Positions 119 to 2,245 of a DNA stretch of 56,123 bases are shown here, in pieces. The first letter of the stretch is position 1; each line of letters begins with the position of its first letter. The position numbers and the translations under genes are program-made. The notes under the pieces are model-generated. The model made no database searches. It was given only the letters and a program-made list of their open reading frames with translations, and was not told the origin of the DNA. The DNA is from Treponema sp. (GTDB taxonomy: Bacteria > Spirochaetota > Spirochaetia > Treponematales > Breznakiellaceae): contig JAIRWM010000176.1 in assembly GCA_031268975.1 (NCBI GenBank), positions 1 to 56,123 of the forward strand, in the 5' to 3' direction.

Positions 119-433
119 ATACAACCCGCCGTAAAAGTACGTCCCGTTGCGGCGGAAGTACGTCCCGCCGTGGCGGAAGTATGTCCCGTTGTCGTGGCGG
201 GATGTCCCGCCGCCTTGGCGGGATGTCCCGTTGCCTTGGCGGGATGTCCCGTTGCTTTGGCGGGATGTCCCGTTGCTTTGGCGGTAGGCCCCGCCAAGCT
301 GGAAGTAACCCCCGCCGTCACGGCGGTAGACCCCGCCAAGGCGGAAGTAACCCCCGCCGTCACGGCGGTAGACCCCGCCGTCACGGAAGTAGCACCCGCC
401 GTCCTCGCGGTCGGCTCCGCCAAGGCGGAAGTG
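119..433. repeat. Tandem array of fifteen 21-bp GC-rich palindromic units
   Basis: Fifteen contiguous 21-bp units can be laid end to end from 119 to 433 with no spacers. Typical units are tgtcccgttgctttggcgg(ga) and acccccgccgtcacggcgg(ta). Most carry a CCGCC arm and a GGCGG arm, so single units can fold, and neighbours can pair with one another. Units fall into subtypes ending in ggaagta, ggcggga or ggcggta. Because 21 is a multiple of three, long stretches of several frames on both strands stay open as heptapeptide repeats; I regard these as by-products. The array overlaps the last codons of the repeat lipoprotein ORF and lies before the gene starting at 82. Confidence 0.85.
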
Positions 434-749
434 GCACCGACGCAACGTGCTTCGTCCAGTACCCACTAGTCTGGCCTGTGCCGGTGGGAAATGTGTCGGT
501 CGCCGTATTCGGGTTGTCCCCGGCGTTCAGCGTGTTGTTGCGGTAGAAATAGTTGCCGCTTTTATAATAAAACACCGCGTGGCCGTTTTCGCCTGGGTTA
601 CTGCCGCTGGTGGCGGTGTTGGAGGCGCTCCCCGGTGTGTGGGTGGTGTTGGTGGGGGAATCGCCGTAGATGATCCCGCCGATTTTGCTAAAGCTGCCGG
701 TATCGCCGACAGACACGCCGCCGTCGACGGACACGCCGCCGCCGAAGGC

Positions 750-1290: not shown

Positions 1291-1836
1291 AAGCTGCTGC
1301 TGCCGTAGCCGTAGCTGTCGACATACACCCCGCCGCCGGTGGTGCCGGTAGTGGTCGTATTGTTCTGTATCTTCGAGCCGGCCCGCATAAAGAGGATCCC
1401 GCCATTTACCGCTACCAGCGAGGCGTTGTTGTCGCCGCGGCCTTCCAGGGGACTCCGCAGGATAAGGGTTTGACCGGCCCCGGTACGCAGCAGGTTTCCC
1501 GTGGTTCCGACGGGGTCAAGGGAAAGGGTTTTCTCCCCCCGGAGGGATACCGTGACGCCGGTAACGGAACCAAAGGTAGGAGCGGAGTCGCCGTCAAGGG
1601 CGATGTCTCCGGTAAGGGTAATAACATAGTTCTTGTTATCCCCGCCGGCCTTTATGGCGGCAATGGCGATATCCCATCCGGACACGTCGGCGGCCTCGAA
1701 GCTGGTAATGCTGGCCGAGGCGCCAAAGTCTTCGGTGTCTATGTCTATCCAGCCGCCGGCAGAGTTGGAACAGGCCGCAAGAACCGCGAGGAGGAGGAAC
1801 AGTGGTAAAAGGAAAAAACTACTTAGCGCGCGGCTT

Positions 1837-1849
1837 GGGGGGGGGGGGG
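1837..1849. repeat. Homopolymer of 13 G (13 C on the coding strand) in the lipoprotein signal region
   Basis: An uninterrupted run of 13 G lies between the ATG at 1899 and the hydrophobic signal core of the repeat lipoprotein. With 13 bases the start is out of frame with the lipobox and body; 12 (or 15) bases would put them in frame. Runs of this length are classic slipped-strand mispairing sites, and poly-G/C tracts are known to vary in Treponema surface genes. Confidence 0.85.
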
Positions 1850-2078
1850 TACAGGGTGTCTTTTTCCGTACGGTATACGAAACGGCGGATTGTTTCCATG
1901 GCTGGCACGCTCCCTGGTATAGTGGACTTGTCCGGCGTCTGCCGGCGGGAGCCGGGCGGGGCCTGGCTCCATGGGGGTAATTGTACCCCCGCACGCAAGG
2001 ATTTGTCAAGGCAAACTTTCACGAAGATACGGCGCCCGTGCCCTGGGCCAGGCGCGCAAATATGGTACTGGCGGGGCC

Positions 2079-2124
2079 TGTCACCGGGAAGGGCGCAGGC
2101 GTGCCCGCGCCCTTCCCGGTGACA
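2079..2124. repeat. Hairpin, left arm of the inverted repeat
   Basis: An 18-bp perfect stem (2079-2096 with 2107-2124, sequence tgtcaccgggaagggcgc and its complement) encloses a 10-nt loop. There is no T run after it, so it does not look like a simple intrinsic terminator. Confidence 0.85.
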
Positions 2125-2245
2125 CCCGCCTGCGCCGTCCCCCTGTGCGCGCCTGGTATATCCTCCGGGCGCCGCCTCTTTGCCGTATCTGCGGTGCGGG
2201 GGGTGCGCTCTGGGGCGTGTGCCGTTTCCGGTGAGACCCGCCCAG

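Follow-up and report, generated by a model that had tools for sequence, protein, structure and literature searches.

The opa genes of Neisseria carry a CTCTT repeat in the 5' region that encodes the leader peptide, and slippage of this repeat switches a large set of related surface proteins through the reading frame (PMC3960869). In pilC and nalP, ON/OFF switching, also by frame, comes from genic G/C homopolymers of 9-20 nucleotides (PMC5953494). The best-documented poly-G switches of Treponema pallidum, those of tprE/G/J, tprL and tp0126, act instead on promoter activity (PMC7864442). The locus described here lies in a stretch of 56,123 nucleotides (contig C72, hereafter the window) from a draft Treponema assembly (2.78 Mb, 213 contigs, 93% complete). 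It resembles opa in carrying a slippage-type tract in a leader-coding 5' region, through which several surface proteins would be switched by frame, and it resembles pilC and nalP in that a poly-C/G tract lies in the reading frame. However, opa combines a pentamer repeat with homologous outer membrane protein bodies, whereas here a mononucleotide tract belongs to one cassette that precedes unrelated lipoprotein bodies. The genes also differ from pilC and nalP, and the promoter-leader-tract unit is common to several loci. The proposed mechanism is thus already known from opa and pilC, and what makes this a new variant is one cassette shared by exchangeable bodies, together with the host group.

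The likeness to T. pallidum consists of G/C homopolymers at surface-protein genes of a spirochaete. The present tract (1849-1837) is situated in the coding start, some 130 bases past the promoter (2009-1980), and would act there on frame. No homopolymer lies in or next to the promoter, where the T. pallidum type of promoter phase variation would have one, and a promoter-tract mechanism was rejected because of this distance. The organisms belong to different families and probably differ in life-style. The T. pallidum framing of the sequence-only reading therefore survives only as an analogy, since the nearest named genomes are mostly uncultured Treponema/Spirochaetaceae metagenome-assembled genomes (MAGs). 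T. pallidum itself was rejected as the source, given the genome size of about 2.78 Mb and these nearest records. A thymidine-phosphorylase query from the window had its best matches in Treponema/Spirochaetaceae MAGs with k119 contig names. Judging by these records and the MAG series to which they belong, the source organism is probably a termite-gut treponeme of the Breznakiellaceae, and it more probably lives as a symbiont than as a pathogen.

The tract and the reading frames of the window gene

A run of exactly 13 G occupies positions 1837-1849 of the forward strand and thus reads as 13 C on the minus strand. This run is too long for chance. The window holds 365 C/G runs of length 4, 78 of length 5, 22 of length 6, none of 7-12 and this one of 13, and Markov models of order 1-5 predict between 0.0002 and 0.03 runs of at least 13 per window. 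A simple-sequence tract far above chance length, within a reading frame and near its start, is also one feature expected of translational phase variation mediated by simple sequence repeats.

On the minus strand, an ATG at 1899-1897 opens a leader (1850-1899) that continues with codons METIRRFVYRTEKDTLY; its final codon, TAC, borrows its C from the tract. Translation through the 13 C yields METIRRFVYRTEKDTLYPPPPKPRAK, 26 codons ended by TAG at 1821-1819. Another post-tract frame begins with SRALSSFFLLPLFLLLAVLAAC (1763-1836), a signal-peptide hydrophobic region and lipobox (LAAC) open in the body frame only, and continues through SNSAGG... into ISGNTA-type repeats. In the register that the tract permits, the sequence thus has a charged n-region, a hydrophobic core and a lipobox of the form [LVI][ASTVI][GAS]C, as expected of a lipoprotein. 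The sequence-only reading is confirmed in its description of the start, the 13 C, the premature stop (26 codons) and the lipoprotein signal in another frame. Its phase rule is also correct: leader and body share a frame if the tract length is a multiple of three. Its placing of the tract inside the signal peptide, encoding Pro, is borne out, in the n-region (1837-1849, minus strand).

The segment that follows the tract (1819-1836) acts as a gate, with TAAGTAG at 1825-1819. No ATG, GTG or TTG occurs between the tract and the lipobox. The body frame is open upstream as far as a TTG at 2009, but this codon was discarded as the main start: the corresponding frame has a stop in the cassette copy of contig C57, and the TTG lies within the -35 hexamer TTGACA. 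The stop in C57 also indicates that the body frame upstream of the tract is not the conserved one.

At the tract segment, the body frame of the window gene is opened by the tract register alone. The N-terminal part of the mature lipoprotein spans 1284-1762 and is followed by a second lesion: an in-frame TAA (1283-1281) occupies a position that encodes lysine (AAA) in the next repeat. The same frame continues over 381-1280 with FTMxxGxISGNTA repeats, the make-up of a repeat-built surface protein. The body has no match in Pfam, NCBIfam or the PDB, and no relatives were found among named genomes. The earlier expectation that 12 or 15 C would mean ON therefore stands for the frame and fails for the full product, since restoring the frame would still leave a protein cut short at about 200 residues. 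This gene is possibly a family member in decay, and even in the ON state its product may be truncated. A tract-less paralogue of this lipoprotein, 54% identical, is found at C58:11082-13100 (L118), and its repeat region contains one in-frame stop as well. Positions 121-440 of the window, immediately downstream of the lipoprotein gene, contain short, GC-rich tandem repeats (GGCGGGATGTCCCG and similar sequences).

The cassette and its copies in the genome

The leader is part of a 5' cassette that is present in eight copies. Its sigma-70-type promoter (1980-2009, minus strand; TTGACA-18-TACAAT) matches 11 of 12 consensus bases in a promoter scan and is kept in all eight. The 5' untranslated region (1900-1979) contains a conserved CCGGCAGACGCCGG inverted repeat and the ribosome-binding sequence AGGGAG; in the alignment, a near-invariant central stretch surrounds the CCGGC-GCCGG repeat. 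The leader recurs at seven other loci, with the common type MKAFRRFVYRTEK. The 72 bases preceding the tract give a significant DNA match among contigs C72, C57, C30, C52, C124 and C62, and the copies in C50 and C91 were recognised by inspection. Variation over the three codon positions of the leader (9, 6, 9) is without a coding signature. Neither the 58 related genomes searched, two of them from its own genus, nor the viral contigs gave a significant match to the cassette. A dispersed long inverted repeat (GTGACAGGCCCCGCCAG arms) lies upstream of the promoter in the window (2060-2150 and 2690-2770) and likewise upstream of several other cassette copies.

Three copies can be read beyond the tract. 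In the window, the 13 C precede the ISGNTA-repeat lipoprotein, off frame with the leader. In contig C124, a tract of 12 C is followed by an intact, open body frame of 445 residues with GLUG motifs (Pfam PF07581, E=1e-12), also off frame with the leader. This body frame has no ATG, GTG or TTG after its last upstream stop, which sits just before the leader, so that the body would be readable only through the leader. Neither C124 nor the window thus offers an alternative start that bypasses the tract, and in C124 the full-length product is open in a single register after it. C124 is therefore a cleaner case than the window gene; its body is also trailed by short repeats, different from those at window positions 121-440. 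In contig C91, CTCCCCC stands where the tract would be, and the leader continues without a frame break into MKAFRHFLCRKEQVTLYLPHAVSSFFRLSLFLPLALLAALTSC, followed by a GLUG body of about 600 residues. The lipobox is LAAC in the window and C124, and TSC follows a similar core in C91. The in-frame fusion of leader and lipoprotein supports the leader ATG as the start, and this natural in-frame sibling is the best evidence for that start.

The gate segment is common to these three copies (GCGnTAAGTAGTTTTTTCC), with the TAAGTAG stop pair conserved. Its TAA and TAG close both wrong frames within 2-5 codons, and the third frame opens the signal peptide. DNA similarity peaks in this segment, beyond which the window body diverges from both GLUG bodies.

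We consider that the tract probably mediates slipped-strand, frame-based (translational) phase variation. The ON/OFF switch proposed by the sequence-only reading gains strong support from the same cassette before an intact body in C124 and from the in-frame fusion in C91. The conserved TAAGTAG pair, the signal-like N-termini behind tracts of this genome and the many long C/G tracts in family members also speak for it. Against it stand the leader's lack of a coding signature, the missing cassette in the 58 relatives, the weak tract-to-signal-peptide link elsewhere in the family and the second in-frame stop in the window body. That stop also favours the view that the gene is decaying, the frameshifted tract and the TAA being two independent inactivations of a redundant, unselected surface-protein gene. 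The tract-less paralogue likewise carries an in-frame stop, and eight of the nine tracts of at least 11 with an identifiable coding frame are off frame, a proportion that counts against the switch, as drift or miscounting would give it too. However, decay does not predict a 13-C run far above chance, nor its recurrence at the same place; C124, with the same off-frame tract, keeps its body wholly open, C91 is open and in frame, and the promoter, leader and TAAGTAG segment are still conserved between loci. On this evidence decay is an unlikely account of the tract.

A homopolymer miscount, with a true tract in frame and a gene constitutively ON, is less probable still. The genome is a draft of 213 contigs, and related MAGs carry MEGAHIT-style k119 contig names and are probably short-read metagenome assemblies. 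Five cassette copies are cut off by the end of their contig, at the tract or close to it. C57 has 7 C at the contig edge; in C30, C50, C52 and C62 the contig stops about 100 bases or less beyond the leader, where the sequence is G- or GC-rich and of low complexity. We take these ends to mean that the assembly broke down at the tract or close by, and reads across the tracts would accordingly be noisy. Nevertheless, C124 is off frame in its own right, its tract and that of the window would be slippage-prone at whatever exact length, and a miscount concerns the present ON/OFF state rather than the switch. Long homopolymers are known sites of polymerase slippage, and leaky decoding, in which slippage of RNA polymerase or the ribosome would yield some in-frame product at all times, at a low level tuned by the tract with no switch, would suit the open body frame of C124, but it is very improbable as the whole explanation and is compatible with DNA slippage, since both can coexist.

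Poly-C tracts elsewhere in the genome and the family

A pattern search of the whole assembly listed 26 C/G tracts of at least 10, 15 of them of at least 12. Among the nine tracts of at least 12 with usable flanks, four lead into a signal-like N-terminus, against 79 of 4000 random positions (2%), where signal-like is judged by a plain measure of hydrophobicity in place of a signal-peptide predictor; two of these hits carry the cassette in common. A lipobox follows in three of the nine, against 15 of 4000 random positions (0.4%). Tracts at the starts of exported proteins include 21 C before a lipoprotein in contig C103 and 13 C before an exported protein in contig C111. G tracts at C91:19174 and in C196 are associated with apparent solute-binding proteins; the proteins at all four of these tracts were named by eye from the sequence. 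A second set of tract units (16-22 C), with a different leader ending in NSLYRK or NSLYSK, is found in contigs C12, C105 and C161 (L119, L120, L123) and in C103 and C128 (L121, L122); the units of C105 and C161 share MNLPGALPTASTPPKKAPAA.

In other members of the family, the link from tract to signal peptide is weak (4/36 and 1/21), and a family-wide rule that tracts precede signal peptides was dropped for this reason. The number of C/G tracts of at least 12 per genome ranges from 0 to 135 in the family, compared with 0-6 in other families of the order, those at contig ends being possibly artefacts. Six relatives (G012, G015, G003, G009, G005 and G011) have 23-135 such tracts per draft genome. 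In G012, tracts chosen by eye lie in or just before genes for glycosyltransferases of families 1, 2 and 8, polysaccharide pyruvyl transferase and methyltransferase. The relatives' tracts (L180-L219) mostly have TA before the C run, and several continue with TATATGTAGCGTAG-like sequence.

The proposed switch and its significance

Under the phase-variation reading, the tract would be the hypermutable element of a translational switch. Transcription and the sole conserved start codon would come from the fixed promoter and leader, and replication slippage on the C run, which we infer, would alter the tract length. In one of the three registers, the leader would be joined to the lipoprotein signal peptide and the protein exported (ON); in the two others, translation would end at a TAA or TAG no more than 2-5 codons past the tract (OFF). 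The window copy as assembled would be in an OFF register. As the 5' cassette is reused before different surface lipoproteins in one genome, cells would display different combinations of them at the surface, from which they might benefit.

On a wider scale, we lean, with some reservation, towards the view that uncultured termite-gut treponemes (probably Breznakiellaceae), most likely mutualists and not pathogens, have large poly-C phasomes, with up to about 135 tracts of at least 12 per genome; genes for glycosyltransferases, pyruvyl transferase, lipoproteins and exported proteins are among the sites. For the present species, a dedicated promoter-leader-poly-C-signal-peptide cassette copied before different surface lipoproteins would add combinatorial surface switching. 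A literature search found no description of phase variation in termite treponemes; its single match concerned a mycoplasma, and the papers on termite spirochaetes that were consulted do not mention it. The cassette provides a clean comparative design, in which the same promoter, leader and tract precede different bodies and an in-frame, tract-less sibling serves as an internal control. A recent review treats the apparent confinement to pathogens of genomes rich in phase-variable loci as a major open question, with database bias as a possible reason (PMC11868660). If a family of insect-gut spirochaetes bears poly-C tracts by the dozen at surface genes, it would offer a direct test of this question outside disease.
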